Origin: Achromobacter sp. AONIH1
Lineage (GTDB): Bacteria; Pseudomonadota; Gammaproteobacteria; Burkholderiales; Burkholderiaceae_B
Direction of reading: 5' to 3'
NCBI RefSeq assembly: GCF_002902905.1
Contig: NZ_CP026124.1
Location: 3,286,001 to 3,350,000, forward strand
DNA: 64,000 nucleotides
The translations under genes were made by a program, and so were the position numbers. Positions within the stretch are counted from its first letter, which is position 1; every line of letters begins with the position of its first letter. Under the pieces are notes generated by a model, which saw only the letters and a list, made by a program, of their open reading frames with translations, made no database searches and was not told the origin of the DNA. Shown one piece after another: positions 22,625 through 40,056 of this stretch.

Positions 22625-22651
22625 GAAATTTCGGTAGCGAGTCGCTACCAT
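22623..22651 (+). promoter_or_regulatory. Candidate rightward early promoter
   Basis: TTGAAA (22623-22628) and TACCAT (22646-22651) are spaced by 17 bp and would start transcription near 22658 toward the replication-type genes. Operator 3 lies inside it. The hexamer match is moderate, but the arrangement relative to the operators is convincing. Confidence 0.6.
22633..22649. promoter_or_regulatory. Operator 3 (17-bp inverted repeat)
   Basis: GGTAGC-GAGTC-GCTACC, a perfect dyad, 25 bp from operator 2. It occupies the spacer and part of the -10 of the candidate rightward promoter, so repressor bound here would block it. Confidence 0.85.
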
Positions 22652-22764
22652 TGATTCTACAAATGAGCTATTCGCGGCGACCGCAGTCAGCGGCGCCGAG
22701 CGCCGCGCGGGGCGGCGCTACCCAGGCGCGGGTCCACGCGTCCGATTCGCTACCAAGGAGGTAT

Positions 22765-23607: not shown

Positions 23608-24352
23608 TTTTCCCACCGAACCCAGGACCTGCGAACGCCACGGCGATTTCCTGGACCTGAAGATGCCGGCGGGCTGGGCGGGCTGCCCGCGCTGCAACGG
23701 CGAGCGCATCGCCCGCGAAGATGCGGGCAAGGCAGCCGCGGCCACATCGGCGCACCGGCGCCAGGTGGCCGACAGCCTGCTAGGCCGCGCGGCCATTCCC
23801 GCGCGCTTCGCCGACAAGCGGCTCGACAACTTCGCGCCGCACGCCGAGGGCCCGCGGCGCGCGCTGGAACTGGCCCGCCGCTACGCCGACGGCTTCGGCG
23901 CCGAGGCCGCGAAGTCCGGCGCCAGCCTGGTGTTCTGCGGCGGCGTCGGCGCGGGCAAGACCCATCTGGCCGTGGGCATCGCCCATCGCCTCATGGAGCA
24001 GGGCCGCATCGCGGTCTTCACCTCGGTAATCAACGCCATCCGCCGGGTCAAGGACACCTACCGCCGCGACAGCGGCCAGTCCGAGGCCCAGGTGGTGGCC
24101 GGCTTCATCCGGCCCGACCTGCTGATCCTGGATGAAGTGGGCGTCCAGTTCGGCAGCGAGACCGAGAAGATGATCCTGTTCGAAATCATCAACGGCCGCT
24201 ACGAGCAGCTCAAGCCCACCATCGTGATCAGCAACCTGGCCAAGGACGCGCTCACCGACTACCTGGGCGAACGCGTGGTCGACCGGCTGCGCGAAGGCGG
24301 CGGGCGCATGCTGATCTTCGACTGGCCCAGCTACCGCAGGCAGGCCGCCTAG
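23549..24352 (+). CDS. DnaC-like replicative helicase loader (AAA+ ATPase)
   Basis: A 267-residue ATPase. A possible zinc site is formed by C29/H31 and C46/C49 (CERHGDF and CPRCNGE). Walker A is GGVGAGKT at residues 131-138 and Walker B LLILDE at 191-196, followed by the NGRYEQLKPTIVISNL segment with sensor-1 asparagine, typical of DnaC/IstB-like loaders. It overlaps the O-like gene by 59 bp; a GAGGGTG site precedes the ATG at 23549, and a later ATG at 23594 is also possible. The expected partner is the host replicative helicase DnaB. Confidence 0.88.
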   Translation: MHASNSRTTAPGWRPMARFSFPTEPRTCERHGDFLDLKMPAGWAGCPRCNGERIAREDAGKAAAATSAHRRQVADSLLGRAAIPARFADKRLDNFAPHAEGPRRALELARRYADGFGAEAAKSGASLVFCGGVGAGKTHLAVGIAHRLMEQGRIAVFTSVINAIRRVKDTYRRDSGQSEAQVVAGFIRPDLLILDEVGVQFGSETEKMILFEIINGRYEQLKPTIVISNLAKDALTDYLGERVVDRLREGGGRMLIFDWPSYRRQAA

Positions 24353-25699: not shown

Positions 25700-25798
25700 A
25701 TGCCGCAGCCGCATGCACAGGCCGCGTCGCGGGCGTATCGCCGCCTTGGCCCGGCCGCCACCAGCGGTCCCCTGACGGGAGCCGCGCATGGCGAATAA
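25700..25798 (+). CDS. Possible 32-residue small ORF coupled to the tail operon
   Basis: MPQPHAQAASRAYRRLGPAA onward, 33 codons, with a good ACAGGAG ribosome binding site 6 bp before the ATG. It overlaps the start of the tail-terminator gene by 11 bp. It may be a leader peptide that couples translation, or the leftover end of a removed head-module gene. No homology can be judged at this length. Confidence 0.35.
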   Translation: MPQPHAQAASRAYRRLGPAATSGPLTGAAHGE

Positions 25799-26381
25799 CT
25801 CCGCCACCGGCGGCTACCTGTTGCCTCTGCAGGCGTCTCCGCCCCTCGAAGACGCCGAACTGGAGGCCGTGTTCCAGGGCTATATCGCCGGCGTGTCCGG
25901 CCTGCCCAGCAACCTGGTTCGTACGCGCTGGCCGGCGGCCGGCGCGGAACCGCCCGCGCCCGACCAGACCTGGTGCCTCATGGACATCCGGTCACAGGCC
26001 GCGGACGCCGCTCCTGCCGTGACACACGATCCGGCCGGGGAGGGGACTGATTCCCTTGTTCGGCACGAGAGCATCGAAGTGCTGTGCTCGATGATCGGCC
26101 CGCGCGCGCTGCGCCACGCGGCGCAGCTGCGCGACGGCTCGGCCGTGCCGCAGAACCGCGAAGCCCTGCAGGCGCAGGACATGGCGGTGACCGGCGCGGG
26201 GCCCATCCAGGCCAGGCACGAACAAGTGAATCAGCAGTGGATTCGGCAGTACGACATCAGCCTGCGCTTCGCGCGCAGAGTGAAGCGCGTCTATCCGGTC
26301 CTGAATCTTCTGTCGGCGCCAGTCACGACGCATGCCGCGTCCGTGTCGTCGACGGATTTCGTCAACTACCTTGCAGATTAA
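25788..26381 (+). CDS. Phage neck/tail terminator-like protein (first gene of tail operon)
   Basis: A 197-residue protein. It has the pattern of tail/neck terminator proteins of contractile phages (gp12-like, LIC_12616 group): [20 protein letters not shown], then VRTRWP and a C-terminal [20 protein letters not shown] with a beta-rich end. It would cap the tail tube and sheath and, in phage, join to the head. It is the first recognisable structural gene of the rightward tail operon; no head gene precedes it. The GTG/ATG region at 25788 has a GGGAGCCGCGC site upstream. Confidence 0.72.
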
Positions 26382-26394
26382 GGGATCTACCACC

Positions 26395-27867
26395 ATGGCT
26401 AATGGATTGCCGGTATCGCGCCTGATCAACGTCACGATCAACATGTCGCCGCTGGCGGCGCAGGGCGCCAACCTCAACACCGCCCTGCTGCTGGGCTCGT
26501 CCGCCGTCATCGACACGGGCGAGCGCATGCGCTCCTATGGCGGCATCGACGCCGTCGCGGCGGACTTCGGCATCACGGCGCCGGAATACCGCGCCGCGCT
26601 GCTGTACTTCCAGCAGACGCCGCAGCCGTCGCAGCTCTACATCGGCCGCTGGGCCAAAGCCGCGACCTCGGCCACCCTGCGCGGCGCCGTGCTGTCGGCC
26701 GCCGAGAAGCAGATGTCGGTCTGGACCGCCGTCAAGGCCGGCGGCTTCAAGCTGAGCGTCGACGGCGTCGAGAAGACGGCCACGGGCCTGGACTTCTCCA
26801 CGGCGACCAACCTGAACGGCGTCGCCTCCATCATCGGCGCCGCGCTGGCCGGCACCACGGTGCAATGGAACGGCTCGCAGTTCGTCGTCACGTCCACCAC
26901 GTCCGGCGCCAGCTCGACGCTGGGCTACGCCTCGGCGCCCGCCACCGGCACCGACGTGTCGGACATGCTGGGCCTGAGCGCCGCCAAGGCGTCCGCGCCC
27001 GTGGCCGGCATCGTTGCCGAAACGCCCGCGGCCGCCGTCTCGCTGTTCCTGGATCGTTTCGCCAACAAGTTCCTGGGCCTGACCTTCGCCGACAGCCTGA
27101 CCGACGCCCAGCACCTCGCCGTGGCCGAACTGATCGAAGCCGACCAGCGCCACCTGTACGGCGTGTCGACCCAGGCGCCGCAGGTGCTGGACCCGACCAA
27201 CGCCGACGACATCGCCAGCCGCCTGAAGGCGCTGAAGTACAAGTACTCGATCGTGCAGTTCTCCAGCGCCAGCCCCTACGCCGTGGCCTCGCTGCTGGGC
27301 CGCATGCTGACGGTGAACTTCAACGCCAACAACACCACCATCACGCTGATGTACAAGCAGGAGCCCGGCATCGTCGCCGAGACCCTGAGCAGCAGCCAGG
27401 CCGACACGCTGGCGGCCAAGCGCTGCAACGTGTTCGTCAACTACGACAACGACACGGCCATCATCCAGTACGGCGTGACGCCCAGCGGCATCTTCATCGA
27501 CTCGGTCTACAACGCGATCTGGTTCCGCAACCGCGTGCAGACCGACGTCTACAACCTGCTCTACACCAGCCCCACCAAGGTGCCCCAGACCGACGCCGGC
27601 AACCAGCTGATCGCCTCGGTGATCGAGGCCGCCTGCGAAGCCGCGGTCAATAACGGCTACCTGGCGCCGGGCGTGTGGAACTCGGCGGGCTTCGGCGCGC
27701 TGAAGCAGGGTGATCCGCTGTCCAAGGGCTACTACGTGTACGCCCCGGCCATTGCCACGCAGTCGCAAGCCGACCGCGAGGCGCGTAAGGCCGTTCCGTT
27801 CCAGGTCGCCGCCAAGGAAGCCGGCGCCATCCACACCGTCGACGTCCTCGTCACGGTCAATCGCTAA
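26395..27867 (+). CDS. Tail sheath protein (DUF3383)
   Basis: A 490-residue protein of the DUF3383 family, the contractile sheath of Pam3-like and related myoviruses. Recognisable parts are the N-terminal [20 protein letters not shown], the [20 protein letters not shown] region, [19 protein letters not shown] and the C-terminal [20 protein letters not shown]. It forms the outer cylinder that contracts to drive the tube. I use the ATG at 26395; the upstream in-frame extension lies in the previous gene. Strong codon adaptation and high Ala/Thr content suggest high expression. Confidence 0.88.
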
Positions 27868-27882
27868 ACAGGAGCACAGCAG

Positions 27883-28323
27883 ATGTCTACCTATTCGTTC
27901 GCTGATATCAGCGCCAGCCTCGTCGGTCCCGGCGGCGCAATCTCGCTGGGGTATGGCTCGGGCGTGGCCGACGAGGGCATCGCCATCGCCGCCAAGGCCG
28001 AGAAAAGCGCCATGACCGTGGGCGCCGACGGCGAAGTCATGCACACCCTGCGCGCCGACAAGAGCGGCACCGTGACGCTGACCTACCTGAAGACCTCGCC
28101 GATCAACGCGCAGCTGCAGGCCCTGTACGACGCTCAGTCGCTGGACAGCCGCCTGTGGGGCAAGAACCTGATCACGGTCACCAACCCGTCGACGGGCGAC
28201 GTGACCACCTGCCGCTCGTGCGCGTTCAGCAAGAAGCCGGACCTGTCCTACAAAAAGGACGGCGACACGGTGAAGTGGACCTTCGACGCGGCCAAGATCG
28301 ACACGATCCTCGGCATTTACTGA
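27883..28323 (+). CDS. Tail tube protein (DUF3277)
   Basis: A 146-residue protein with features of DUF3277 tail tube proteins: MSTYSFADISASLVGPGGAI, VGADGEVMHTLRADKSGTVT and the typical YLKTSPINAQLQALYDAQ stretch. It polymerises as stacked hexamers inside the sheath. It lies 15 bp after the sheath gene with a CAGGAG ribosome binding site, an order conserved in contractile tails. Confidence 0.88.
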   Translation: MSTYSFADISASLVGPGGAISLGYGSGVADEGIAIAAKAEKSAMTVGADGEVMHTLRADKSGTVTLTYLKTSPINAQLQALYDAQSLDSRLWGKNLITVTNPSTGDVTTCRSCAFSKKPDLSYKKDGDTVKWTFDAAKIDTILGIY

Positions 28324-28333
28324 GCACGGCGCC

Positions 28334-28783
28334 ATGGCATTGGAAATCGACCTGAACGGCCACCGGTATTCCATCGGAAAACTGAGCGCCAAGCAGCAGT
28401 TCCACATGTCGCGCCGCATCGCCCCGATCGTTCCCACGCTGATCCCCGTGTTCGTCCGCCTGGCGGCGGGCGGCAAGCGGATCAGCGAGGATCCGGGCGG
28501 CATGGCCGATGTGCTCCAACCCCTGGCCGATGGCCTGGCCGCGATGAAGGACGAGGACGCCGAGTACGTGCTCGACACCTGCATGCAGGCGGTGCAGCGC
28601 AAGCAGGAGCACGGCTGGGCCAACATCTGGTCGGCCAGCCAGCGCGTGCCGATGTTCCAGGACATCGACCTGGCCGTCATGCTGCCGCTGGCGCTGCGCG
28701 TGATCACCGAGAACCTCGGGCCTTTTATTCAAGGGCTGCTTACCAGCCAGACCGGCAGCCCCGAGGCGACACAGGCTGGCTGA
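28334..28783 (+). CDS. Tail assembly chaperone, short form
   Basis: A 149-residue protein beginning MALEIDLNGHRYSIGKLSAK, in the position of the lambda gpG or P2 gpE-type chaperone between tube and tape measure. Its stop at 28781 is followed by a conserved-looking coding stretch in the -1 frame with no start codon of its own, so this is probably the product made without frameshifting. The segment GPFIQGLLTSQTG just before the end is encoded by a U-rich CCTTTTATTC run that is a possible slip point. Confidence 0.8.
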   Translation: MALEIDLNGHRYSIGKLSAKQQFHMSRRIAPIVPTLIPVFVRLAAGGKRISEDPGGMADVLQPLADGLAAMKDEDAEYVLDTCMQAVQRKQEHGWANIWSASQRVPMFQDIDLAVMLPLALRVITENLGPFIQGLLTSQTGSPEATQAG

Positions 28784-28968
28784 AGCGCCTGCCTGGCGGC
28801 GAGGACTGGCTGCTGGCGCCGGTCCTCGAGGGACTCTGCAAGTACGAGTCCCTCAAGGACGGCACGCTGGACCTGGCCGACATCGCGCTCCTGAACGACG
28901 CCTTGTCGGTCCGGGCAGACAACAAGGCGGAAGCGCACCGCCGCTACATGGCAGAGAAAAATGACTAG
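28729..28968 (+). CDS. -1 frame extension of the tail assembly chaperone (DUF6889-like)
   Basis: The -1 frame stays open across the chaperone stop and encodes WLKRLPGGEDWLLAPVLEGL, CKYESLKDGTLDLADIAL and NDALSVRADNKAEAHRRYMA before stopping at 28966-28968, overlapping the tape-measure start. There is no ATG, GTG or TTG near its beginning. Its composition is protein-like and it resembles small proteins annotated as DUF6889 in similar clusters. A programmed -1 frameshift, as in lambda gpG-T and P2 E-E', is the simplest explanation. The exact slip site is not fixed; the start given is nominal. Confidence 0.68.
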   Translation, partial: SRAAYQPDRQPRGDTGWLKRLPGGEDWLLAPVLEGLCKYESLKDGTLDLADIALLNDALSVRADNKAEAHRRYMAEKND

Positions 28969-30760
28969 TATTTCCGTGCCCGTGGATGCGGGCGGAACCG
29001 CGACCTTCAAGATAGACAAGGGGCAGATGGATCAGCTGATGTCGCAGCTGGGCCAGCTCAGCGACCAGGGCAAGCCGTCCCGGTCCGAGAAGCTGATGCA
29101 GGCGCTGCAGACGTTCGTGGACCGGGCCCATACCGTGGTCAGCTTCGCCGAGAGCCGCCTCGAACGCTTTGAAAACGCGTTCATGGCGGCGCGCCTGGCG
29201 GGCACATCGGGCAGGGAGCTGCGCGCGCTGGAGGCGGCCGGGCAGGAATTCGGCCTGTCGGCCGAAGCCATGCGCAATGGCGTGCAGGCGCTCTATCGCT
29301 CCGTGCGCGATGATCCCGAGGCCGCGGCAGCCCTGCGCAACCAAGGCATCAGCACGCATGACGACGAAGGCAATCAACGCAGCACCGCCGATCTGGCGCG
29401 AGCGCTGAGCAATGTGCTGCAGAAGCTCGATGGCAAGCAGGCGAACGAGCTGGGCAAGCAGCTCAATCTTGACGCCTCCGTGATCGAGGCGCTGCGCAAC
29501 CCCGCGTTCCCGGCACAGGCCGACAGCGCGTATGCCGGCCTGGAAGGCAGCAAGGTCGACGCCGCCGGCGAACGCGCTCATCGCGTGATGACTTCCGTTC
29601 GTGAGGTCGGACGCCAGCTGGACAGTGTGTTCGCGCAGGCCTTCCTGACCATGGCCGACAAGCTTGAACCATTCCTGCAGAACGTCGCCACCTGGCTGAA
29701 GGAAAACGGCACGCTGTTGGGCACGCGCCTGGGAGAAGTCGGAAATTTCTTCATCTCCATCCTGTCCGGGCTGGGACCACTGATCTCCATGTTTCAGTGG
29801 TTGGACGAGGCGACCGGCGGATTCTCCACGCAACTTACGCTGGCGCTGGGCGGCCTGTTGCTGCTCGGTGGCGGCGGCGTGATCAGGGGACTGTTCAGCC
29901 TGCTGTCGTCCTTGTCGAAGGCAACCGGTTTGACCGAGTTCCTGGGGAAACAGTGGACGCGGTTGAAAGATGCCCTGGGTCCGATGGCGGAGCGGGCTGG
30001 AGCCGCGATGCGTTCGGCATTCTCCCGCATGGGCAACTTCCTGCTGTCGTCGGGCAGGGCGATGGCGACGGGCATCGGTCAGATGGCCGCCAATGCCTGG
30101 GCCCGGCTAGGCACGTTCGCGACGCAGGCGGGCAGCTTCGTGGCCAATGGCCTGAGCGCCGTCGGCAGGGCGGTGGCGCAGACCGCCGAGTCGCTGTGGT
30201 CCAGGGTCACATCGTGGTTTGGACGCGCGTCGGCGTCGCTGGGAGAACTGTCCGGCCAGGCCGCGCGGGTTGGCGCCCGTGTCGGCGGCGGCGCAGCGCT
30301 GATGCTGATGCCGAGCGAACTGGGAGACGATCAGCTGGAGCTGAAGAAGCTCCAGTACCGGCGCGCCAACGGCCTGCCCCTGGACGGTTCGGCCGATCCC
30401 GATCAGGACGGTCTTGAAGGCAGCGTGATGCAGTACTACGTCAAGCCAGATGGGCCGGAACCTGCGCGCACCGCGCCCTATCCGTCGTCGCCGACGGCCG
30501 ACCGACTGAGTCGCATGTTGAACCCGAGCAGCATCGAACCGTGGCAAGGCTATGCGCCGGGTTTCGCGGGCACCGGCCTGCTGGGCCTGCCGGGAATGCC
30601 GCCGGCGCAACCCGGCGTCACCTCGGCAACCGTGAACGCCAACACCACCATCAACGTGCATGGCGTATCCGACCCGCTGGCCGTCGGCAACGCTGTCGCC
30701 AACGAGCAGAACCGGGTCAACAGCGACCTGGCTCGCAATACGCGAGGAGCAATGGAGTGA
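28961..30760 (+). CDS. Tail tape measure protein
   Basis: A 599-residue protein in the tape-measure position after the chaperone. Its long helical N-terminal half (residues 1-250, for example RSEKLMQALQTFVDRAHTVV) is followed by hydrophobic segments (LGGLLLLGGGGVIRGLFSLL near residue 300), as expected of a protein that enters or approaches the target membrane. The C-terminal ~80 residues are Pro/Gly-rich and end in a NANTTINVHGVSDP strand. Tape-measure length sets tail length, so a fairly short tail is expected. It overlaps the chaperone extension by 8 bp. Confidence 0.8.
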   Translation: MTSISVPVDAGGTATFKIDKGQMDQLMSQLGQLSDQGKPSRSEKLMQALQTFVDRAHTVVSFAESRLERFENAFMAARLAGTSGRELRALEAAGQEFGLSAEAMRNGVQALYRSVRDDPEAAAALRNQGISTHDDEGNQRSTADLARALSNVLQKLDGKQANELGKQLNLDASVIEALRNPAFPAQADSAYAGLEGSKVDAAGERAHRVMTSVREVGRQLDSVFAQAFLTMADKLEPFLQNVATWLKENGTLLGTRLGEVGNFFISILSGLGPLISMFQWLDEATGGFSTQLTLALGGLLLLGGGGVIRGLFSLLSSLSKATGLTEFLGKQWTRLKDALGPMAERAGAAMRSAFSRMGNFLLSSGRAMATGIGQMAANAWARLGTFATQAGSFVANGLSAVGRAVAQTAESLWSRVTSWFGRASASLGELSGQAARVGARVGGGAALMLMPSELGDDQLELKKLQYRRANGLPLDGSADPDQDGLEGSVMQYYVKPDGPEPARTAPYPSSPTADRLSRMLNPSSIEPWQGYAPGFAGTGLLGLPGMPPAQPGVTSATVNANTTINVHGVSDPLAVGNAVANEQNRVNSDLARNTRGAME

Positions 30761-31356
30761 ACGAGCTCGACTTCCAAGGGGCCGACATGGTCGGCCTGTC
30801 GTCCAAGCGCATCGGCGACATCCTCATCCAGGCGACCACCAGCGAGTCCTACGACGACACGCTGTCCATCACCAGCCACCCGGTCGAGTCCGGCCCCTAT
30901 GGCAACTCGGCGATCAGCGACCACGCCTACAAGCAGCCGCTGACCGTGACGCTGAAGTGCGGCTGGAGCAACGCTTCCTACGAGGCGCTGCTGGGCGCCA
31001 GGGCGATGGACGTGGCCAACGGCAAGGCGGCCGCCGACGACTACGCGACCGCGATCTATTCGCAGCTGCTGAGCCTGCAGGAAGCGCGCGAGCCGATCGA
31101 GGTGGTCACCAGCCGCCGGCGCTACGTGAACATGCTCATCGAGAGCCTGGGCGTCGAGCACAACCTGGCCAGCTCGGGCGCGCTGTTCGTGACCGTCAAG
31201 CTGCGCGAGGTGATCGTGGCGCAGACCCGCGTCACCTCGCTGCCGCCCTACGCGCACCAGCAGCAGAAGGAAAAGACGGCCGACAGGCAGAACCTGGGCA
31301 CGAAGTCGCCCAAGCCCGTGGCCGCGCCATTCGACGGCCCGCGGGCCTCGACCTAG
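30757..31356 (+). CDS. Baseplate protein, DUF6046/Dit-like N-terminal domain
   Basis: A 199-residue protein starting at the GTG at 30757, which overlaps the tape-measure stop (GTGA). The core (DILIQATTSESYDDTLSITS, YKQPLTVTLKCGWSNASYEA, VTSRRRYVNMLIESLGVEHN) resembles distal-tail/Dit-like proteins that start the baseplate at the tube end. The C-terminal ~35 residues (HQQQKEKTADRQNLGTKSPK) are charged and probably flexible. Its place between tape measure and plug is as in Pam3-type tails. Confidence 0.75.
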   Translation: MNELDFQGADMVGLSSKRIGDILIQATTSESYDDTLSITSHPVESGPYGNSAISDHAYKQPLTVTLKCGWSNASYEALLGARAMDVANGKAAADDYATAIYSQLLSLQEAREPIEVVTSRRRYVNMLIESLGVEHNLASSGALFVTVKLREVIVAQTRVTSLPPYAHQQQKEKTADRQNLGTKSPKPVAAPFDGPRAST

Positions 31357-31365
31357 GAGACGACC

Positions 31366-31665
31366 ATGAACTACTTCGAAATCCCGCTGTCGCCGATCCC
31401 GCAGGTGTTCGCCATCTCGCTGGGCGGAGAGGACTACCGGCTGACGCTGCAATACCGCGACGGCTGGATCCTCGACGTGGCCGACGACCTGGGCAAACCG
31501 CTGGTGTCGGGCCTGCCGCTGGTGACCGGGCTGGACCTGCTGGCGCAGCATCGCCATCTGGGTTTTGCAGGCGGGTTGTGGGTCAAGGGCGCGGAATCGC
31601 CCGACGACGCGCCCACCTTCAACGACCTGGGACGCGGTTCCCATCTCTACTGGGCGGCTGAATGA
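31366..31665 (+). CDS. Baseplate plug protein (cyanophage Pam3 gp18-like)
   Basis: A 99-residue beta-rich protein: NYFEIPLSPIPQVFAISLGG, then EDYRLTLQYRDGWILDVADD and the terminal FNDLGRGSHLYW. This is the pattern of the small plug protein described in the Pam3 baseplate (DUF6983), which sits within the hub. It follows the Dit-like gene by 9 bp with a GGAG ribosome binding site. Length is normal. Confidence 0.78.
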   Translation: MNYFEIPLSPIPQVFAISLGGEDYRLTLQYRDGWILDVADDLGKPLVSGLPLVTGLDLLAQHRHLGFAGGLWVKGAESPDDAPTFNDLGRGSHLYWAAE

Positions 31666-31666
31666 C

Positions 31667-32713
31667 ATGGCCGACATACCGATGATGGAACCCGTCACCA
31701 CCTACGGCGATCCGGTGGCGGACGAGGCGGGCGTGCGCCAGTGGGGCCGCAAGGTCTCGCTGATCGTGGGCGGCGAAGAGGCGCTGGACCTGTCTGAACT
31801 GAGTTTCAGCTTCGAGATCAAGCGCAACGACGCCAGCTCGCCCAACACCGCGACCATCAAGGTGATGAACGCCAGCGCCGAAACCGCCAGCATGGTGCAG
31901 AAGGAGTTCACCCGGGTGGTGCTGCAGGCCGGCTACGAAGGCAACTACGGCGTGATCTTCCACGGCAATCTGGTGCGCGCCAAATGGGGCAAGTCCGGCG
32001 GCGTCGACACCGTGCTGAACCTGACCGCCGCCGATGGCGACCAGGCCTACAACTTCGCCGTGGTGAACACCACCCTGCCCAAGGGCGCGACCAAGGCCGA
32101 CAAGCTGCGGCTGCTGTGCTCGGCCATGAACCCCTATGGGGTCAAGCAGGGCTACGCGCCCGAGCTGGACGGCAAGGCTTCGATCCGCGGCACGGTGATG
32201 TCCGGCATGGCGCGCAGCTACATGAATGATGTCTGCGGCAGCGCCAACGCGCTGTGGAGCATCCAGGACGGCAAGGTCAACGTCGTGCCGGAGACTGCCT
32301 ACATGCCCGGTTCGGTGCCGGTCATCTCGCACGAGACCGGCCTGGTCGGCATGCCCGAGCAGGCCGAGAACGGCATCAAGCTGCGCATGCTGCTCAATCC
32401 CAGCATCCGCGTCGGCGGGCTGATCCACCTGGACAACAGCCGCATCGCCGAATACGGCTTCCAGGCCAAGGCGGGCGCCAAGCGCGACGGCGGCAAGAAG
32501 GCCGAGGCGGAAGTCGACCGCAGCGAGCAGCGCAAGATCAGCAGCGATGGCTACTACTACGTGATGGTGGTCGAGCATCGCGGCAACACGCGCGGCGGCG
32601 ATTGGTACACGGACGTGCTGTGCGTGGCCACCGACGCGACGCTGTACCCGGGCGATCTCGGGCAGGCCGGCCCCGGCGGCGGCGATGGCAAGGCCGCCAA
32701 CGTCGTCAAGTAG
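31667..32713 (+). CDS. Baseplate hub protein
   Basis: A 348-residue protein in the position of phage hub proteins (T4 gp27 / P2 gpD-like). It starts MADIPMMEPVTTYGDPVADE at the ATG at 31667, 2 bp after the plug stop. Beta-rich segments such as LSELSFSFEIKRNDASSPNT and GVIFHGNLVRAKWGKSGGVD, then a RISSDGYYYVMVVEHRGNTR-like end, fit hub folds that hold the spike and connect to the tube. It precedes the spike gene, as expected. Confidence 0.78.
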   Translation: MADIPMMEPVTTYGDPVADEAGVRQWGRKVSLIVGGEEALDLSELSFSFEIKRNDASSPNTATIKVMNASAETASMVQKEFTRVVLQAGYEGNYGVIFHGNLVRAKWGKSGGVDTVLNLTAADGDQAYNFAVVNTTLPKGATKADKLRLLCSAMNPYGVKQGYAPELDGKASIRGTVMSGMARSYMNDVCGSANALWSIQDGKVNVVPETAYMPGSVPVISHETGLVGMPEQAENGIKLRMLLNPSIRVGGLIHLDNSRIAEYGFQAKAGAKRDGGKKAEAEVDRSEQRKISSDGYYYVMVVEHRGNTRGGDWYTDVLCVATDATLYPGDLGQAGPGGGDGKAANVVK

Positions 32714-32750: not shown

Positions 32751-33494
32751 ATGAACCGACTTGAAAGCTTGAACGATCCGGAAGCCAGCTTGCGCGCCGG
32801 TATGCGCGGCGCGCTGGCTGAAACCTGGACCGCCATGCCGGCCGTGATCGTGGACTTCGATCCGGTGGCGATGACGTGCTCGGCGCAGCCCGCGATCCGC
32901 GCGCGCGTCACGGCGCCCTCGGGCGGCCAGCAGCACATGCCGCTGCCGCTGCTGCTCGATTGCCCCGTCTACTTTCCGTCGGGCGGCAATTGCACGCTGA
33001 CCTTTCCGGTCAAGCCCGGCGACGAATGCCTGGTGGTGTTCGCCTCGCGCTGCATCGACGCCTGGTGGCAGTCGGGCGGCGTGCAGGACCAGGCGGAAAT
33101 GCGCATGCACGACCTGTCCGACGGCTTCGTCTTCGTGGGGGTGCGCTCGCAGCCGCGCGTGCTGCCGTCGGTCAACACCGGCGCCACCGAGCTGCGCAGC
33201 GACGACGGCTCGACCTTTCTGCGACTGGATCCTGCCAGCCAGAAGGTGAAGATCGTGGCGCCGGGCGGTTTCGAGGTCGTGGCGCCGGTGTCCGAGTTCT
33301 CGGATCAGGTGCTGGTCAAGGGGCTGCTCAGCTACGTGGCCGGCCTGGTCGGCAGCGGCGGCCAGGGCAGCGCCGCGCGCATCACCGGCGCGCTCAACGT
33401 GATCGGCCAGATCATCGCCAATGGCAAGCGGGTCGACGACACCCATACCCATACCGCGCAAGGCGCCAACGCGGCCACCACGCCGCCCAACTGA
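32751..33494 (+). CDS. Membrane-puncturing spike protein (Gp138-like) with HxH tip
   Basis: A 247-residue protein with an N-terminal OB-fold-type domain (MPAVIVDFDPVAMTCSAQPA, then VYFPSGGNCTLTFPVKPGDE) typical of Gp138-family spikes, a beta-helix-like middle and a C-terminal DDTHTHTAQGANAATTPPN. H232 and H234 form the HxH motif that binds iron at the apex of P2- and phi92-type spikes. The protein trimer tips the tail and pierces the outer membrane of the target. It has its own clear start at 32751. Confidence 0.88.
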   Translation: MNRLESLNDPEASLRAGMRGALAETWTAMPAVIVDFDPVAMTCSAQPAIRARVTAPSGGQQHMPLPLLLDCPVYFPSGGNCTLTFPVKPGDECLVVFASRCIDAWWQSGGVQDQAEMRMHDLSDGFVFVGVRSQPRVLPSVNTGATELRSDDGSTFLRLDPASQKVKIVAPGGFEVVAPVSEFSDQVLVKGLLSYVAGLVGSGGQGSAARITGALNVIGQIIANGKRVDDTHTHTAQGANAATTPPN

Positions 33495-33502
33495 GGACAC
33501 CT

Positions 33503-33856
33503 ATGCGTTACCGAAAACTCGACGCCGACGGGGACTACTCGTTCGGCGCGCGGCAGGCCGACTTTTTCCGGGACTCTCCGGACACCGTCGCGCAGGCCGT
33601 CAAGACGCGGCTGATGCTATTGCGCGGCGAGTGGTTCCTGGACTCGACCGAGGGCATGCCCTGGCAGGGCGAGGTGCTGGGCAAGCAGCCCCGCGCCAGC
33701 TACGACTGGGCCATCCGCCAGCGCATGCTGGGCACGCCCGGCGTGACCGGCATCAGCGACTACGCCAGCCGCCTCGATCCGCAAAGCCGCGGCCTGAGCG
33801 TCACGGCAACCCTTACAACCCTTTATGGCTTGGCCATCGTGCAGGCGGCTCTATGA
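33503..33856 (+). CDS. Baseplate wedge protein, gp25-like
   Basis: A 117-residue protein with the gp25/lysozyme-like wedge pattern: YSFGARQADFFRDSPDTVAQ, then VKTRLMLLRGEWFLDSTEGM and TPGVTGISDYASRLDPQSRG. In T4 and P2 this protein begins sheath assembly and is part of the wedge that triggers contraction. It overlaps the start of the J-like gene by 4 bp (ATGA). The length is right for the family. Confidence 0.88.
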   Translation: MRYRKLDADGDYSFGARQADFFRDSPDTVAQAVKTRLMLLRGEWFLDSTEGMPWQGEVLGKQPRASYDWAIRQRMLGTPGVTGISDYASRLDPQSRGLSVTATLTTLYGLAIVQAAL

Positions 33857-35037
33857 CGATACTCTCTACCGCTCCGGTGATCGACGCCGCGGGCATACGC
33901 GCACCGAGCTACGGCGAAGTGCTGCAGTACTTCAAGGACCAGTACCGCAACATCTACGGCGCGGACACCTACCTGGAGGCCGATAGCCAGGACGGCCAGC
34001 TGCTGGCCGTGTTCGCGATGGCGATCCACGACGCCAACACCGCGGCCGTCCAGGTCTACAACGCCTTCTCGCCGGCCACGGCCTCGGGCGCCGCGCTGTC
34101 CAGCAACGTCAAGATCAACGGCCTGGCGCGCGGCGTGGCCACGCGCTCGTCGGTCGATCTGCGCATCGTGGGGCAGGGCGGCACCACCATCTCCGGCGGC
34201 GTGGCGCTGGACGGCGATCGCGTGCAGTGGGAGCTGCCGGCCAGCGTCACCATCCCGCCGGCCGGCGAGATTACGGTCACCGCGCTGTGCCGCAAGGTCG
34301 GCGCCGTGGCCGCCGCGCCGGGCTCCATCACGCGCATCGGCACGCCCACGCTGGGCTGGCAGTCCGTGACCAACCCGGCCGCCGCCACGCCCGGCGCGCC
34401 CGTCGAAAGCGACGCGGCGCTGCGGGTCCGGCAAGCCGTGTCGGTGGCGCTGCCGTCGCGCACCGTGCTGGAAGGCACGGTCGGTGCGGTGGCGTCCGTG
34501 CCGGGCGTGCTGCGGCACGTCGCCTACGAGAACGACACGGCCGTCGCGGATGCCAATGGCCTGCCGCCGCACAGCATCGCGCTGGTGGTGGACGGCGGCG
34601 ACGCAGGCCTGATCGCCAGCGCCATCGCCGCCAAGAAGACGCCAGGCACCGGCACGCATGGCTCGACCAGCGTGGTGGTCACCGACATCTACGGCATCGC
34701 GCATCCGATCCGCTTCTTCCGGCCCATTCGCGTGCCGGTGTCCGCCGAGATCCAGATGCGCGCGCTGGCCGGCTACACCACGGCCACGGGCCAGGCGGTG
34801 CAGCGGGCGGTGGCGGACTACATCAATGGCGTGGCCATCGGCGGCGGCGCCAGCGCGTCCGTGGAATGGGCCGACGCCATCTCGGCAGCCAATGGCGTGC
34901 CGGGCAGTGGCACCTTCAAGATCACCGGCCTGGCGCTGCGCCGGTCATCCGGCAACGGCGCGCCCGACGTGGCGCTCGCCTTCAACGAGGCGGCGTCGAC
35001 CACGCCCGACGCGGTCAAGATCACGGTGAGCGGGTGA
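33853..35037 (+). CDS. Baseplate J-like protein (gp6/gp47-like wedge)
   Basis: A 394-residue baseplate J family protein. Signs are the N-terminal YGEVLQYFKDQYRNIYGADT, the SGAALSSNVKINGLARGVAT segment, and the core region SDAALRVRQAVSVALPSRTV with VPGVLRHVAYENDTAVADAN. It forms the iris-like wedge around the hub and carries fibres through its partner. Its ATG overlaps the gp25-like stop and its TGA overlaps the next start, so translation is coupled throughout. Confidence 0.92.
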   Translation: MTILSTAPVIDAAGIRAPSYGEVLQYFKDQYRNIYGADTYLEADSQDGQLLAVFAMAIHDANTAAVQVYNAFSPATASGAALSSNVKINGLARGVATRSSVDLRIVGQGGTTISGGVALDGDRVQWELPASVTIPPAGEITVTALCRKVGAVAAAPGSITRIGTPTLGWQSVTNPAAATPGAPVESDAALRVRQAVSVALPSRTVLEGTVGAVASVPGVLRHVAYENDTAVADANGLPPHSIALVVDGGDAGLIASAIAAKKTPGTGTHGSTSVVVTDIYGIAHPIRFFRPIRVPVSAEIQMRALAGYTTATGQAVQRAVADYINGVAIGGGASASVEWADAISAANGVPGSGTFKITGLALRRSSGNGAPDVALAFNEAASTTPDAVKITVSG

Positions 35038-35708
35038 GCGACATGGCCAATGCTGACGAATATCTCGGGCTGCTGTCCGCCTATCACCGCCCGCGGCCCA
35101 GGTTCGGCGCCACCGTGGCGGCGGTCTGCGGCGCGGCGGCTGCCGTGCGCGACCTGTACGCGGGCATGCCGGACACCTTCGACCTGGACCTGGCCGTCGG
35201 CGCGCAGCTGGACACCGTGGGCCGCTGGATCGGGCTGGGACGTCGCGTCGCCACGCCGATCTCCGGCGTGTACTTCGCGCTGGACATCGAGGGGCTGGGC
35301 ATGGACCAGGGCGTCTGGCAGGGGCCCTTCGATCCGGACAACGGCCTGACCGTGCTGGACGACGACACCTACCGGCTGCTGCTGCGGGCCAAGATCGGCG
35401 CCAACCACTGGGACGGCACGCTGGAAACCTCGGCCGCCATCCTGAACCAGATCTTCCAGGGCGGCACCCATGTGCTGATCGAGGACAACGGCGACATGTC
35501 GGTGGACATCGGCGTGGCCGGCGCGCCGCCTTCGGCGCTGTTCCTGGCCCTGCTGACCGGCGGCTACATCCCGCTCAAACCCGAAGGCGTGCGCATCAAG
35601 TACTACGTGCTCCCTTCGGGTGAGGGGCCGCTGTTCGGTTTTGACGTGCAGAACCAATACATCTCGGGGTTCGACAACGGACTCTGGGGATCGCTGTTCG
35701 CCGGTTGA
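35034..35708 (+). CDS. Baseplate protein, DUF2612 (gpI-like)
   Basis: A 224-residue protein of the DUF2612 family, the functional counterpart of P2 gpI that links the fibre to the baseplate. It has FDLDLAVGAQLDTVGRWIGL, the WQGPFDPDNGLTVLDDDTYR loop and LKPEGVRIKYYVLPSGEGPL near the C-terminus. The start is at the GTG at 35034, overlapping the J stop; an ATG three codons later is an alternative. The fibre gene follows by 29 bp. Confidence 0.85.
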   Translation: MSDMANADEYLGLLSAYHRPRPRFGATVAAVCGAAAAVRDLYAGMPDTFDLDLAVGAQLDTVGRWIGLGRRVATPISGVYFALDIEGLGMDQGVWQGPFDPDNGLTVLDDDTYRLLLRAKIGANHWDGTLETSAAILNQIFQGGTHVLIEDNGDMSVDIGVAGAPPSALFLALLTGGYIPLKPEGVRIKYYVLPSGEGPLFGFDVQNQYISGFDNGLWGSLFAG

Positions 35709-35737: not shown

Positions 35738-36706
35738 GTGGCTATCAATCAAATCCTTCCCTTCGGCACCGCCGCCGGCGCCAACGTGCTCGCACCCGCC
35801 GACTATCAGGCCCTGGCCAGCCGCAATGCCGGCTTCTCGGCCGGCACCGCCAAGTCTAAAGAACTGAATACCGTCTGGCGCCAGGCGTCCTTCGTGGCCG
35901 CCATGCTCGGCCAGTACATCGCCGACAAGAGCGGCCAGGACGTGCTGGACAACGGCGACCTGGCCGCGCTGCAGGCCAAGTTCGTGGCCGCCCTGGCCGC
36001 CTCGCCGGCCTTCACCGGCACGCCCACCGCGCCCACGCCCGCCGCCGGCGACAAGAGCGGCAAGCTTGCCACCACCGCCTTCGTGGCCGGCAACTTCCCG
36101 CGCGTGTGCTCGATCGGCGCGCTGCCGACGCAGGACATCGGCCCGATCATCGTGGCGGAATGCTCCGAGGTCTGGACCTGGGTATCCACCCCGTACTACA
36201 CCGGCTACCGCTCGCCGCTCTGCGGCCGTCCGGTGGACGGTCACACCGTCACCCCGCTGGCCAGCGAAGTCGACGCGGTCGGCGGCGAGCTGAGCAAGAC
36301 CGACTATGCGCGCCTGTGGGGCTATGCGCGCGAGAATAATCTGGTGGTGTCCGATGCGGTCTGGACCGCGAACCGTGGGGCGCATTACTTCGCGGATGTC
36401 AGCGGGACGACGTTCCGGGTGCCGGATTTGCGGAATATGTTCCGGCGGTATACGGGGACTGACGCTGACACTGCAAATGCGAGGGGGCTGGCGAGCAGGC
36501 AGGGTGACTTGCTACGGAGGCATTCACATCGCTTCCAGACATCAGGTCAAAGCGGGACTAGCTCAGGCGAGGCCATCGCGGTCCATCGCAATGTCATGAG
36601 CGCTGTCAACATCATTTGGAACAATTCCGGCTCTACCATTGATGACAGTGGCGGGAACGAAACCCGACCGGTGAACACGGCGTACCACCCCCGCATCCAC
36701 GTATGA
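35738..36706 (+). CDS. Tail fibre with tail-collar domain; currently expressed shufflon variant
   Basis: A 322-residue fibre. Residues 1-130 are a baseplate-binding region (MAINQILPFGTAAGANVLAP onward); residues ~150-240 form a tail-collar-like domain (CGRPVDGHTVTP ... FRVPDLRNMFRRYTG). At residues 245-250 (TANARG) the gene crosses the 13-bp element CACTGCAAATGCG, and the rest (ASRQGDLLRRHSHRFQTSGQ to NTAYHPRIHV) is an exchangeable tip. Three alternative tips lie downstream on the other strand. The tip presumably binds the receptor on the target cell. The stop is 2 bp from the stop of the first inverted cassette. Confidence 0.9.
   Translation: MAINQILPFGTAAGANVLAPADYQALASRNAGFSAGTAKSKELNTVWRQASFVAAMLGQYIADKSGQDVLDNGDLAALQAKFVAALAASPAFTGTPTAPTPAAGDKSGKLATTAFVAGNFPRVCSIGALPTQDIGPIIVAECSEVWTWVSTPYYTGYRSPLCGRPVDGHTVTPLASEVDAVGGELSKTDYARLWGYARENNLVVSDAVWTANRGAHYFADVSGTTFRVPDLRNMFRRYTGTDADTANARGLASRQGDLLRRHSHRFQTSGQSGTSSGEAIAVHRNVMSAVNIIWNNSGSTIDDSGGNETRPVNTAYHPRIHV
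36469..36481 (+). repeat. Shufflon crossover site in the expressed fibre gene
   Basis: CACTGCAAATGCG followed by AGGGGG. It is the only copy in plus orientation; the other three are inverted. It codes for T-A-N-A within the fibre. Confidence 0.85.
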
Positions 36707-36708
36707 AA

Positions 36709-36979
36709 TTAGGCATGGATACGTGGGTGATAAGCGACGTTTTCCGGTCTAACCATGGCAGACATGCTCGACATTGTGACGGAGGTGTAGCCGCCCGGGA
36801 CGATGGTGGAGCGCAGTGCCGGATAACGAGACAAGTCGGCGCTATCGGCGCCGATCGACGCAGGTGCGTTCGGGCTAGGACAACCCAGCGCCGTCACCCC
36901 CTCGCCGTCACTTGTTAAGGGATCGTAGGGTATGAGGGTGCCGCGCTGCTTGCTCCCAACGACTCTCGCATTTGCAGTG
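36709..36979 (-). other. Silent fibre cassette C
   Basis: From the site at 36967-36979 it encodes TANARVVGSKQRGTLIPYDP and onward to RPENVAYHPRIHA with a TAA at 36709-36711, tail-to-tail with the expressed fibre. It codes for 89 residues from the shared T. No start codon or ribosome binding site precedes it, so it should be silent until inverted. Confidence 0.85.
36967..36979 (-). repeat. Shufflon crossover site of cassette C
   Basis: CACTGCAAATGCG on the minus strand, followed by AGAGTCG. It is inverted relative to the site in the fibre gene. Confidence 0.85.
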
Positions 36980-36988
36980 AGGCAGTCG

Positions 36989-37196
36989 TCAAGCATGGAT
37001 CCGAGGGTGGTATGCGGCGTTTACCGGCCGCGTCTCGGCTCCGCCGGCCTGGCCGGTAACACCTGCGCCGTACAGCGCATAAGAACTCTGGCCAGCGCTC
37101 AAAGATCCAGAGCCCACACCGACCGCGAGGCTGGCGTGGTGGTGGCTCTGGAGCTGCTGGAGTTGCTGCGAAGCCAGCGCGCGCGCATTTGCAGTG
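36989..37196 (-). other. Silent fibre cassette B
   Basis: From the site at 37184-37196 it encodes TANARALASQQLQQLQSHHH and onward through AVGVGSGSLSAGQSSYALYG to ETRPVNAAYHPRIHA, with TGA at 36989-36991. It is the shortest tip, 68 residues from the shared T, and has a His-rich, Gly/Ser-rich sequence. It has no start of its own and therefore can be missed by gene finders. Confidence 0.85.
37184..37196 (-). repeat. Shufflon crossover site of cassette B
   Basis: CACTGCAAATGCG on the minus strand, followed by CGCGCG; the bases after the 13-mer differ from those of the other sites. Confidence 0.85.
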
Positions 37197-37205
37197 AAGT
37201 GGACG

Positions 37206-37476
37206 TCACATGTGGACTCGAGGGTAATAGGCAGTGTTCATTGCCCTAGTCTCAGATGAAGTACGTGTTCCTGCCGAAAGTGCGAACACGGCATCTATAA
37301 ACCTCAGAGGAGCCACACCGCCGGTCGAAGCTGCGTAGATCAGCCCCGTATCGCGTGTTTTGGCAAAGACACCATCGACCATGCCGCTGGTGCCAGCGGC
37401 TAGGTCGATCAGCGTTCCTGTTGCGCGCTGGATGGCGTCCAACTGCTTACTGGCTAATCCCCTCGCATTTGCAGTG
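37206..37476 (-). other. Silent fibre cassette A
   Basis: From the site at 37464-37476 it encodes TANARGLASKQLDAIQRATG and onward through AAGTSGMVDGVFAKTRDTGL to ETRAMNTAYYPRVHM, with TGA at 37206-37208. It codes for 89 residues from the shared T. A chance in-frame ATG lies upstream of the site, but without a ribosome binding site. The LDAIQRATGTLIDLA segment is typical of collar-type fibre tips. Confidence 0.85.
37464..37476 (-). repeat. Shufflon crossover site of cassette A
   Basis: CACTGCAAATGCG on the minus strand, followed by AGGGGATTAGCC, the copy most like the one in the expressed fibre (shared AGGGG). It marks the outer edge of the shufflon, 25 bp before the fibre-assembly gene. Confidence 0.85.
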
Positions 37477-37500
37477 CAAACCCCATTTAAAGGAAAAACT

Positions 37501-37915: not shown

Positions 37916-38938
37916 CTAGGCGGCGAGCGGAAGAGCGTCCAGCCCTTCGAGTCGTTCGCGGCGCAGCTGTTCCAGCTGGCGCTTGCCCAGCGGACTGCGC
38001 GCCAGCTTCTGCGCCAGCTCGCGTCCATGCGGATGGTAGTAGCGCAGCAGCATGCGGGTGTCGACGTTGCCGTTGACCTTGGCCAGCTCGTGGATCTGGA
38101 ACACCGTGGCCAGCTGTGAGGTGCCTTCGTGCCGCAGATCGTGAAAGCGCAGATCGCGGAAATAGGCCGTGTTGGGACGCCGTCCGTGATGACGGCACAG
38201 CGCTTCGTAGCGCAGGCGGGCGCGGCGTCGCGCGCGGATGAAGGCGCGCGTGACGGAGCCCGGACGCATCGCGAAGATGCGCCCGCGCATCGGCTTGCCG
38301 GTGACCCAGCGGCGTAGCGCCTCGCGCGCTAGCGGGGTCAGCGGCACGTCGCGCGCGCGGCCGTTCTTGGTGTGGGGCAGGTGGACCACGCCATGCATCA
38401 GGTCCAGGTGCTCGCGCTGGATGCCGACCACTTCCGAGCGGCGCATGCCGGTTTCCCGGGCCACCGTCAGGATGGTGGGCAGCTCGCTGGAGCGGGTGGC
38501 CTGGATGATCCAGTCCAGTTCCTGGCGCGGGCATTGCTCTTCGGACAGGCCGCGCAGCGTGATGCGGTCGAACAGTCGACGGTCGCGGGCATCGTCGATC
38601 GCCGGCCTGCGCACCAATTGAACCGGGTTCGCCAGCTGGTCGAAGCCCCAATCCTTGCGGATCACCGTGTAGACGTGGGACAGGAAGGCCATGCGCCGCA
38701 CGACGGTGGCCGGCGCGCGGTCCTTCAGCCATTCGTCGCGCAGCTCGGTCAAGTCCGAGCTGCGGATCCGGTCCACCGGCCGGATCGCCTGCCGGGTCGC
38801 TCGCCAGATGCGGGCTATGGACTGCTCTGATACGTGCCCCTTCTTCGTGGCTGAGACCTCGGCCAGATAGCGATCGAGCGCATCGGCCAGGGTGGGCGCG
38901 GGTTTGCGGCGGGGCTGTCGGCGGGTCCAGGGCTTCAT
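37916..38938 (-). CDS. Tyrosine recombinase, probable shufflon recombinase (Rci-like)
   Basis: A 340-residue site-specific recombinase. Catalytic residues in order: R166 (ETGMRRSE), K191 (HTKNG), H266 and R269 (FHDLRHEG), and nucleophile Y300 (LLRYYHP). The position usually held by His or Trp before the tyrosine is N291 (VNGN). The HDLRHEGTSQL stretch resembles the HDLRHEA-type motif of Rci and other shufflon recombinases. The gene is transcribed toward the cassettes and ends 58 bp from the fibre-assembly gene. No att-like sites are seen and the element is headless, so a role in tip inversion is more likely than integration. Confidence 0.82.
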   Translation of the reverse strand: MKPWTRRQPRRKPAPTLADALDRYLAEVSATKKGHVSEQSIARIWRATRQAIRPVDRIRSSDLTELRDEWLKDRAPATVVRRMAFLSHVYTVIRKDWGFDQLANPVQLVRRPAIDDARDRRLFDRITLRGLSEEQCPRQELDWIIQATRSSELPTILTVARETGMRRSEVVGIQREHLDLMHGVVHLPHTKNGRARDVPLTPLAREALRRWVTGKPMRGRIFAMRPGSVTRAFIRARRRARLRYEALCRHHGRRPNTAYFRDLRFHDLRHEGTSQLATVFQIHELAKVNGNVDTRMLLRYYHPHGRELAQKLARSPLGKRQLEQLRRERLEGLDALPLAA

Positions 38939-39072: not shown

Positions 39073-39116
39073 GGCGGGAGACAGGGATGCGGGGTGGTCA
39101 GAGGAGTAGCAAGGAT

Positions 39117-39578
39117 ATGGAACCGGGATCGACGGGGTTGGGCGGGTTTGCCGCGTTGAAGATTGCGCTGGCGTTCGGCATGCCGGCGGCCATGGCGGCG
39201 CTGATCGGCATGTTGCTGATGCCGCCGCGCAGCTCGCGCGAGTTCGTGGCGCGCACCGCCTGTACTGTGGTGAGTTCGTTCTTGTTCGGGCCTTTGCTGG
39301 CGATCGGGATGATCGCCTGGATGCCCGACATTGTTTCGTCCGCCTATTGGCTGGCCCAGCGCACGGGCCTGGGCGAGGACGGGCTGCTGGCCATGTTCTA
39401 CGTGCTGGGGCCGTGCATGTTGCTGGCAGGGCTGCCGGCCTGGTGGGTGCTGGGCGCCTATCTGCGCCTGACGGCCAAGCTGCAGAACCAGGACCTGGTC
39501 GATTGGGCGGTCGAGATCCGGCGCAAGGCGCTGGGCTTGGGGCAGGGTACGGAGAAAGGAGGAAATCATGACGCTTGA
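39117..39578 (+). CDS. Putative holin
   Basis: A 153-residue protein with three hydrophobic segments (around residues 10-35, 47-68 and 88-115: ALKIALAFGMPAAMAALIGM, VVSSFLFGPLLAIGMIAWM, LLAMFYVLGPCMLLAGLPAWW) and a charged C-terminus, directly before the endolysin gene and overlapping it by 11 bp. This is the usual holin position and layout. No family name is certain. The ATG at 39117 has GAGGAG and AAGGA motifs upstream. Confidence 0.7.
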   Translation: MEPGSTGLGGFAALKIALAFGMPAAMAALIGMLLMPPRSSREFVARTACTVVSSFLFGPLLAIGMIAWMPDIVSSAYWLAQRTGLGEDGLLAMFYVLGPCMLLAGLPAWWVLGAYLRLTAKLQNQDLVDWAVEIRRKALGLGQGTEKGGNHDA

Positions 39579-40056
39579 ACAAGTGATGCGGGACGCGATC
39601 CGGCCCGCGCTGGCCCTGCTACCGGCCGCCATGGACACGCCGCAGGCGCGCTGCATGCTGTTGGCGATCGGCCTGCAGGAAAGCCGTTTCGTGCATCGGC
39701 GGCAGATCGGTGGTCCGGCGCGCGGCTTCTGGCAGTTTGAACAAGGCGGCGGCGTGCGCGGCGTGCTGGCGCATCCGGCCAGCGCGGCGCTGGCGCGCCA
39801 GGTATGCCAGGTTCGCGGGGTGCCGCCGACGGCGCCGTCCGTGTACTCGCGCCTGGAACTGGACGATGTGCTGGCGGCCGCGTTTGCGCGGCTGCTGCTT
39901 TGGACCGATCCGGCGCGCCTGCCGCGCACGGGCGATGCCGATGCTGCCTGGGCGTTGTACTTGCGCACCTGGCGGCCGGGCAAACCCCATCGCCAGACCT
40001 GGGACGCGCTGCATGCCCAGGCGGCGCAAGCGACCGAGGAGTTGGAACATGCTTGA
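39568..40056 (+). CDS. Endolysin/transglycosylase-like lysis enzyme
   Basis: A 162-residue soluble protein. The LQESRF segment (glutamate near residue 39) followed by GPARGFWQFE resembles the catalytic region of lytic transglycosylase/lysozyme-type phage endolysins. Its place between holin and spanins supports a role in degrading the producing cell's peptidoglycan for release. No signal peptide is seen, so it depends on the holin. The fold is inferred from short motifs. Confidence 0.72.
   Translation: MTLEQVMRDAIRPALALLPAAMDTPQARCMLLAIGLQESRFVHRRQIGGPARGFWQFEQGGGVRGVLAHPASAALARQVCQVRGVPPTAPSVYSRLELDDVLAAAFARLLLWTDPARLPRTGDADAAWALYLRTWRPGKPHRQTWDALHAQAAQATEELEHA

Follow-up and report, generated by a model that had tools for sequence, protein, structure and literature searches.

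A putative recombinase-driven array of switchable tail-fibre tips in a likely tailocin locus of Achromobacter sp. AONIH1

Can the fibre encoded by a contractile-tail locus of Achromobacter sp. AONIH1 exchange the part that would bind the target cell? The question is raised by a 64-kb stretch of the genome (NZ_CP026124.1, positions 3,286,001-3,350,000; hereafter the window, to which all coordinates refer), in which a tail-fibre gene is followed by three further fibre ends in the opposite orientation, a chaperone gene and a gene for a tyrosine recombinase (Table 1). Judged from this sequence and its relatives, it is very probable that the locus contains a switchable array of fibre tips, driven by the recombinase, in a likely tailocin, with inversion predicted for this strain. 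According to the proposed mechanism, the recombinase (37916-38938) would act on a cassette array at 36469-37476, inverting the DNA between opposed copies of the site CACTGCAAATGCG, and inversion would join one of four tips in frame to a constant part of 244 residues. The asymmetry of the site, a feature shared with the R64 shufflon, would favour inversion over deletion. The particle would be an R-type tailocin with tips binding different cell surfaces, and one culture would hold cells making particles of differing specificity.

The 13-base sequence CACTGCAAATGCG occurs exactly four times in the genome (6,648,943 bases searched, or 6.65 Mb), once on the plus strand and three times on the minus strand, all within 1,008 bp; exact searches of the window and the whole genome thus bear out the first-pass annotation of this DNA, which had described one plus and three minus copies. 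One further copy with a single mismatch lies elsewhere in the genome, and the window holds no additional copy even when two mismatches are allowed. A simple composition model predicts about 0.2 copies per genome for the 13-mer with A or G as its last base, so that four copies in 1,008 bp are far beyond chance; the window count at two mismatches (4 found versus 3.0 expected in shuffled sequence) is insufficient by itself to demonstrate an excess. A chance origin of the repeats was rejected on the genome-wide counts, the codon evidence and the clustering of sites in genomes with the recombinase, both of which are given below.

The plus-strand site starts at the final base of codon 244 of the fibre gene (35738-36706), and from each of the three minus-strand sites runs an open frame without stops, in the same frame and beginning TANAR. 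The silent tips end as the active one does, with NxAY(H/Y)PR(I/V)H and one residue more. The alternative C-termini described in the first-pass annotation (TANAR, differing tips and a common end) are accordingly intact and in frame, but the last tip ends AYYPRVHM and not AYHPRIH. The silent tips had also been said to have no start codon, which does not strictly hold: an in-frame ATG stands 6 codons upstream of tip 1 and a TTG 11 codons upstream of tip 3. The argument that inversion would fuse a new tip in frame was right, and 12 arrangements would be reachable by inversion alone, together exposing all four tips. Two structural features of a shufflon in the general sense are present: partial genes are divided by at least three short repeats that occur in both orientations, and one constant 5' part is combined with in-frame alternative 3' parts. 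Tips 0, 2 and 3 each have a PHROG match by themselves and tip 1 alone has none, though a fibre protein of Achromobacter ruhlandii (P0018) bears a tip 57% identical to tip 1. The third-position guanine-plus-cytosine (GC) fraction is 0.88 in the constant part versus 0.54-0.67 in the tips, which suggests that the tips were imported. An AlphaFold model of the fibre (mean predicted local distance difference test score 48) was not used, and by sequence neither the fibre nor the recombinase has a relative of solved structure.

The repeat appears to be conserved as DNA and not only as the protein joint that it encodes. Cassettes were gathered by their C-terminal motif alone, giving 141 distinct ends from 70 loci; because the cassettes are related to one another, these numbers do not represent independent cases. 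Of the 141, 127 have the exact core CACTGCAAATGC upstream within the same open stretch (125 of them in the expected frame), 9 have it with one mismatch and 5 lack it. From the codon usage of the cassettes, the codons ACT GCA AAT are predicted with a probability of 0.0067 (0.7%); the core codons are therefore fixed far beyond codon usage, which indicates conservation at the DNA level, and conservation of the joint at the protein level only was rejected on this evidence. By their left flanks the sites fall into three classes, one at the fibre, one internal and one on the chaperone side, and in every class 94-100% of the sites have a G at the position eight bases before the first site base. Since the left flank follows the position in the array and the cassettes to the right vary, the crossover would fall inside the 13-mer. 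In one genome (G019) base 13 (A) travels with the cassette.

The tyrosine recombinase is likely the engine of the inversion. Its R166, R269 and Y300 are shared by all 45 sequences of an alignment (that of the window, 42 from fetched loci and 2 plasmid proteins). In the alignment its N-terminus is short before the conserved stretch, some 40 residues follow Y300, and the long C-terminal extension of the relative on plasmid p28NP2 is absent. This plasmid relative, 34% identical to it, adjoins a PilV gene annotated as a shufflon adhesin, and the best identity among the phage matches listed is 35%. PADLOC returned no match for the recombinase, the fibre or the chaperone. The gene adjoins the array and was absent from the first-pass account.

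Recombinase and sites occur together across the genus. The recombinase is encoded in 18 of 43 genus genomes (expectation value up to 1e-30), including one truncated and two diverged copies, and under a stricter threshold (up to 1e-70) in 32 of 268 family genomes, belonging to 11 of 43 genera; the matches that were named come from Achromobacter, Bordetella and Herbaspirillum. At least two exact sites within 3 kb were found in 15 of the 18 genus genomes with the recombinase versus 1 of the 25 others (Fisher p 8e-8). Clustered sites account for 51 of the 63 exact copies in the 43 genus genomes, and the reversed pattern gives 7 matches in total. Viral contigs gave 33 loci through the recombinase query and 7 through the fibre query. 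Of 77 sequences compared, made up of the window and 76 fetched loci (with several places fetched twice), 65 contain the exact 12-base core. The comparison of cassette order proposed in the first-pass annotation shows that orders and orientations vary, with up to eight cassettes per locus (L105). The tips, 181 in all with some places counted twice, form 83 families at 70% identity, and tips are common to different species.

The association extends beyond the genus. Of 20 additional loci with a recombinase match, 15 have opposed copies of the core, or of a variant of it, next to the recombinase, representing ten other genera of the family (18 of the 20 loci were taken from other genera); no opposed pair was found in the remaining five (L163, L167, L169, L178 and L045). 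The distant loci L164, L170, L176 and L177 have the site variants CTGCGAATGCGG, CATTGCAAATGC, CACTGCAAATGT and CAATGCAAATGC, a pattern suggestive of joint drift of site and recombinase. A prophage that has genes for terminase, portal, protease and major head protein likewise carries this recombinase and these sites (G041, C1:2170001-2210000; L108 and L109). Searches with the DNA and with the tip 2 protein matched no annotated phage holding the array. The nearest phage fibre N-terminus belongs to Bordetella phage vB_BaM-IFTN9, the annotation of which lists a single fibre gene, a single assembly gene and, some 3 kb beyond, an integrase; a 10-kb stretch of this phage contains no exact core and a single copy with one mismatch, outside the fibre gene.

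Shuffling is likely active, judging from the relatives. Contigs end within the array in 6 of 16 genome loci, versus 0 of 16 within the 5 kb beyond the recombinase, and 13 inspected contig ends from seven genomes lie at a site, 7 of them within 0-5 bases of it or inside the 13-mer and 6 at 64-98 bases beyond; a short-read assembly would be expected to break at such points if a sequence had more than one neighbour. In two drafts (G019 and G021) the cassette start fused to the fibre is also found at a silent, minus-oriented internal site, with 111 of 111 available bases identical, the second copy being on the contig that carries the recombinase side. In G011 one tip stands at both ends of a single contig with 260 bases identical, and in G039 (C44/L184 and C97/L179) two fibres 91.7% identical have a 77-base cassette start in common, which would reflect either exchange between two elements or an overlap in the assembly graph. 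The database proteins P0002, P0005 and P0006 differ from the constant part of the window only in the start residue and have differing C-termini; in P0005, which matches 243 of 244 residues, the constant part is followed by 27 of the 27 first residues of tip 1. Nearly the same constant part carries other tips in P0003, P0004 and P0020. Of the 41 tip families with several records, 13 include both an active tip and, at a different locus, a silent one.

Several observations weigh against an active switch or against parts of its mechanism. The contig ends and shared starts could also be produced by duplicated or collapsed cassettes; the shared start in G039 lies between two different fibres; and no cassette is shared across the broken pair in G009, G013, G006 and G018, that is, in 4 of the 7 pairs compared (in G006 and G018 just 12-13 bases were available). 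P0005 ends after its 27 residues of tip 1, and P0006 and P0043 contain frame-broken stretches resembling tip 2 and tip 3. The families of the silent tips 1, 2 and 3 (F7, F0 and F10) are active in 0 of the 77 sequences, and the nearest IMG/VR record (L066/L099), perhaps the same strain, has the arrangement of the window. Clustered sites occur in one genus genome without a recombinase match (G039, where a stretch with four sites, L179, has no such match). At the position of the second catalytic histidine, the window recombinase and the nearer relatives shown have Asn291, and more distant ones, such as L103 and the two proteins from plasmids, have histidine. Base 13 is constant in just 17 of 27 tip families and differs within 10, which weakens its linkage to the cassette. 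Decay is evident in relatives, where the recombinase is truncated in G034 and tips are broken or read through in L032, L042 and L046; the first-pass annotation had counted degenerate cassettes in relatives against a shufflon, and such cassettes do exist there, but the tips of the window are intact.

The genes to the left of the array argue for a contractile tail. Sheath, tube and baseplate genes are present, and capsid, portal and terminase families were not found among the open reading frames (ORFs) scanned between about 16 and 48 kb, in which not every small ORF was included and some were compared with one library. Three proteins amid the tail genes match PHROGs of the head-and-packaging category (phrog_280, phrog_349 and phrog_587) that are described merely as structural. 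A phage replication module, which would be absent from a typical R-type tailocin, is represented by O-like and DnaC-like genes (22651-24352); because these lie between the repressor and the tail genes, the locus is considered to be of prophage descent. PADLOC assigned weak DrmD and TRIP13 matches to the DnaC-like protein. The ORF at 30660-31661 was rejected as probably not the real gene.

The stretch that begins with the repressor and ends with the small genes at 39-40 kb has the same chromosomal neighbours in four relatives (G040, G029, G011 and G012), with AI-2E-type transporter and DUF4153 genes on the left and GGDEF and EamA genes on the right, and in G040 only about 1 kb separates the repressor from the tail terminator. 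The sheath gene is kept in 10 of the 43 genus genomes at 89-100% identity and with an open frame. The locus therefore resembles a fixed R-type tailocin, from the genes of which particle production and killing are predicted, and the first-pass view of a headless-type contractile-tail cluster with a fibre shufflon is supported, at the level of genes, by its anatomy and its relatives. In G009 (C4, L153) and G021 (C12, L154) the same tailocin locus has a fibre that matches only in its first 164-165 residues, and a 14-kb stretch contains neither site nor recombinase, evidently a non-shuffling allele.

Table 1. Features of the putative tailocin locus and its fibre-tip array, in window coordinates
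Feature	Position	Strand	Evidence or remark
S24-type repressor, left edge of locus	21796..22569	-	PF00717; syntenic in four relatives
Phage O-like replication initiation protein, sign of prophage descent	22651..23607	+	Sequence match
DnaC-like helicase loader, sign of prophage descent	23549..24352	+	Sequence match
Tail terminator (neck) protein	25788..26381	+	Sequence match
Tail sheath	26332..27867	+	phrog_205 and DUF3383
Probable tail tube, KPP10 Orf10 family	27883..28323	+	Tube role assigned from position
Tail assembly chaperone	28334..28783	+	Sequence match
Tape measure protein	28961..30760	+	Sequence match
Dit-like tail protein	30541..31356	+	PF21821 and phrog_817
Baseplate plug, Pam3 gp18-like	31366..31665	+	Sequence match
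Baseplate hub	31565..32713	+	Sequence match
Phage protein PF18352, putative spike	32751..33494	+	Spike role assigned from position
Baseplate wedge, Baseplate_J	33421..35037	+	Sequence match
DUF2612 protein, putative baseplate component	35043..35708	+	Baseplate role assigned from position
Tail-fibre gene in its present state, 322 residues, GTG start	35738..36706	+	PHROG tail-fibre families
Constant part of fibre, residues 1-244	35738..36469	+	P0002, P0005 and P0006 match 243/244
S0, candidate crossover site CACTGCAAATGCG	36469..36481	+	In frame inside fibre gene
Tip 0, currently in frame with constant part, 78 residues and stop	36470..36706	+	PHROG tail-fibre match
Silent tip 1, 89 residues and stop	36709..36978	-	First 27 residues follow constant part in P0005
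S1, site CACTGCAAATGCG	36967..36979	-	Exact copy
Silent tip 2, 68 residues and stop	36989..37195	-	PHROG tail collar match
S2, site CACTGCAAATGCG	37184..37196	-	Exact copy
Silent tip 3, 89 residues and stop	37206..37475	-	PHROG tail-fibre match
S3, distal site CACTGCAAATGCG, adjoining chaperone gene	37464..37476	-	Exact copy; left flank of this site class largely fixed in relatives
Tail-fibre assembly (chaperone) protein, 118 residues	37501..37857	+	phrog_1807 and phrog_105
Tyrosine recombinase, 340 residues, likely invertase	37916..38938	-	PF00589, E 7e-17; R166, R269 and Y300 invariant
Two small genes at right edge, perhaps lysis genes by position	39087..40056	+	phrog_1024 and phrog_3108, function unknown; syntenic in four relatives

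Three other explanations of the locus have to be weighed. It is unlikely that the shufflon, although real, belongs to what is left of the tail of a prophage that is defective or split, the switch having served only the host range of a phage. The same module is indeed found in the G041 prophage, which has terminase, portal and capsid genes; head-and-packaging PHROGs are matched by three proteins of the tail locus; and O-like, DnaC-like and S24 repressor genes accompany the tail genes, the O-like gene having made this explanation slightly less unlikely than it was before; but against it stand the fixed synteny and conserved tail genes of the four relatives, the gap of about 1 kb between repressor and terminator in G040, and an open and conserved sheath frame in 10 of 43 genomes. 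An array that shuffled ancestrally and is now frozen, its tips changing mainly by gene transfer between strains, is improbable. Recombinase and all four tips are intact in the window, the same cassette start occupies two contexts within each of two drafts, and P0005 joins the constant part to the start of tip 1, which are set against the unchanged arrangement of the nearest record, the third-position GC of the tips as a sign of import, the decayed relatives and the non-shuffling allele of G009 and G021.

Least credible, and indeed very improbable, is the explanation that the repeats merely encode the protein joint TANAR, the minus-strand copies being old duplicated ends that undergo homologous exchange and the recombinase a leftover integrase. 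TANAR is conserved at the protein level too, and the sharing of tips between species would agree with exchange of this kind, but codons fixed beyond usage, with 127 of 141 cassettes exact, are not accounted for by a protein joint, nor open silent frames by old duplicated ends. As to the enzyme, phage relatives of the recombinase are often annotated as integrases and the replication genes show the prophage descent of the locus; a leftover integrase is nevertheless difficult to reconcile with opposed core or variant copies beside the recombinase in 15 of the 20 further loci, and with the fixed chromosomal place of the tailocin locus.

If the locus is a recombinase-driven array of switchable tips, a wider proposal can be made, tentatively and with considerable doubt: that one recombinase clade and one 12-base site constitute a family-wide cassette currency for receptor specificity, comparable to integron cassettes. 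Tips would shuffle within a locus and pass between tailocins and prophages, and such exchange could even link two elements in a single genome. Some support for this comes from tip families F0, F1 and F2, which are present both in tailocin loci whose synteny was established and in loci of a different tail type, from the 83 families among the 181 tips, and from the shared 77-base start in G039.

The module is widespread, compact and apparently intact in the window. A clone that makes tailocins with several tips at once could strike more than one kind of competitor, and a change in a single receptor would be less likely to allow escape. Shuffling would also explain why draft contigs end at the sites and why several fibre proteins in databases are truncated or change frame shortly past the joint.

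The closest precedent for inversion of a tailocin fibre is carotovoricin, which the first-pass annotation did not name. Its Ein is a serine-type invertase, unlike the enzyme that adjoins the present array, which is of the PF00589 tyrosine type (the rest of the AONIH1 genome was not searched for serine invertases). Carotovoricin Er is described as a tailocin in which an invertible fibre region beside the invertase gives differing killing spectra (PMC12090994, PMC13195805); unlike it, the locus in the window has a multi-cassette array of short tips. The phage systems Min, Cin and Gin, as summarized in PMC6109161, likewise provide alternative tail-fibre ends by inversion, with multiple inversions in Min; unlike the present system, they use serine recombinases.

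With the R64 shufflon and its recombinase Rci, as presented in PMC11852207 and PMC3414803, the locus shares several inverted asymmetric sites, an adjoining tyrosine recombinase and alternative C-termini of one surface protein, along with the catalytic R, R and Y of the Rci family. The R64 sites are given as 31 bases long, with only the core and right arm conserved and a longest conserved stretch of 13 nucleotides (PMC11852207). The target there is the pilus adhesin PilV, whereas the split neighbouring gene here encodes a tail fibre, and the additional domain of Rci beyond the catalytic domain is absent from the window recombinase, according to the alignment. A 2012 survey lists nine predicted betaproteobacterial prophages with recombinases of the R64-enzyme family, none of which (0 of 9) bore a shufflon-like structure (PMC3414803). 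This system in Achromobacter was not reported in the title or opening of the abstract of any match listed; preprints and subscription papers were outside the scope of that search, and the system may already be in print.

The Rin shufflon of Bifidobacterium prophages, for which PMC6109161 describes a tyrosine recombinase, 11 bp asymmetric repeats and several orientations in read data, resembles the present locus in plan. Both have a tyrosine recombinase at the far end of an array of receptor-binding-protein ends (receptor binding being presumed here), short asymmetric repeats (11 bp in Rin versus 13 bp in the window), and a constant N-terminus with alternative C-termini (95-100 residues in Rin versus 68-89 in the window). 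Rin, however, is found in complete flexible-tailed phages of Gram-positive hosts and the present array in an apparently headless contractile locus of a betaproteobacterium, and the rix repeat TTCCCTAACCC, which differs from CACTGCAAATGCG, has 0 exact matches in the window. The combination of tyrosine recombinase, multi-tip array and apparently headless contractile tail in betaproteobacteria was not met in the literature searched; in kind it is a shufflon. Inversion of tailocin fibres, as in carotovoricin, and shufflons of the Rin type with a tyrosine recombinase were known already, and the locus of Achromobacter sp. AONIH1 likely places the latter in a tailocin.

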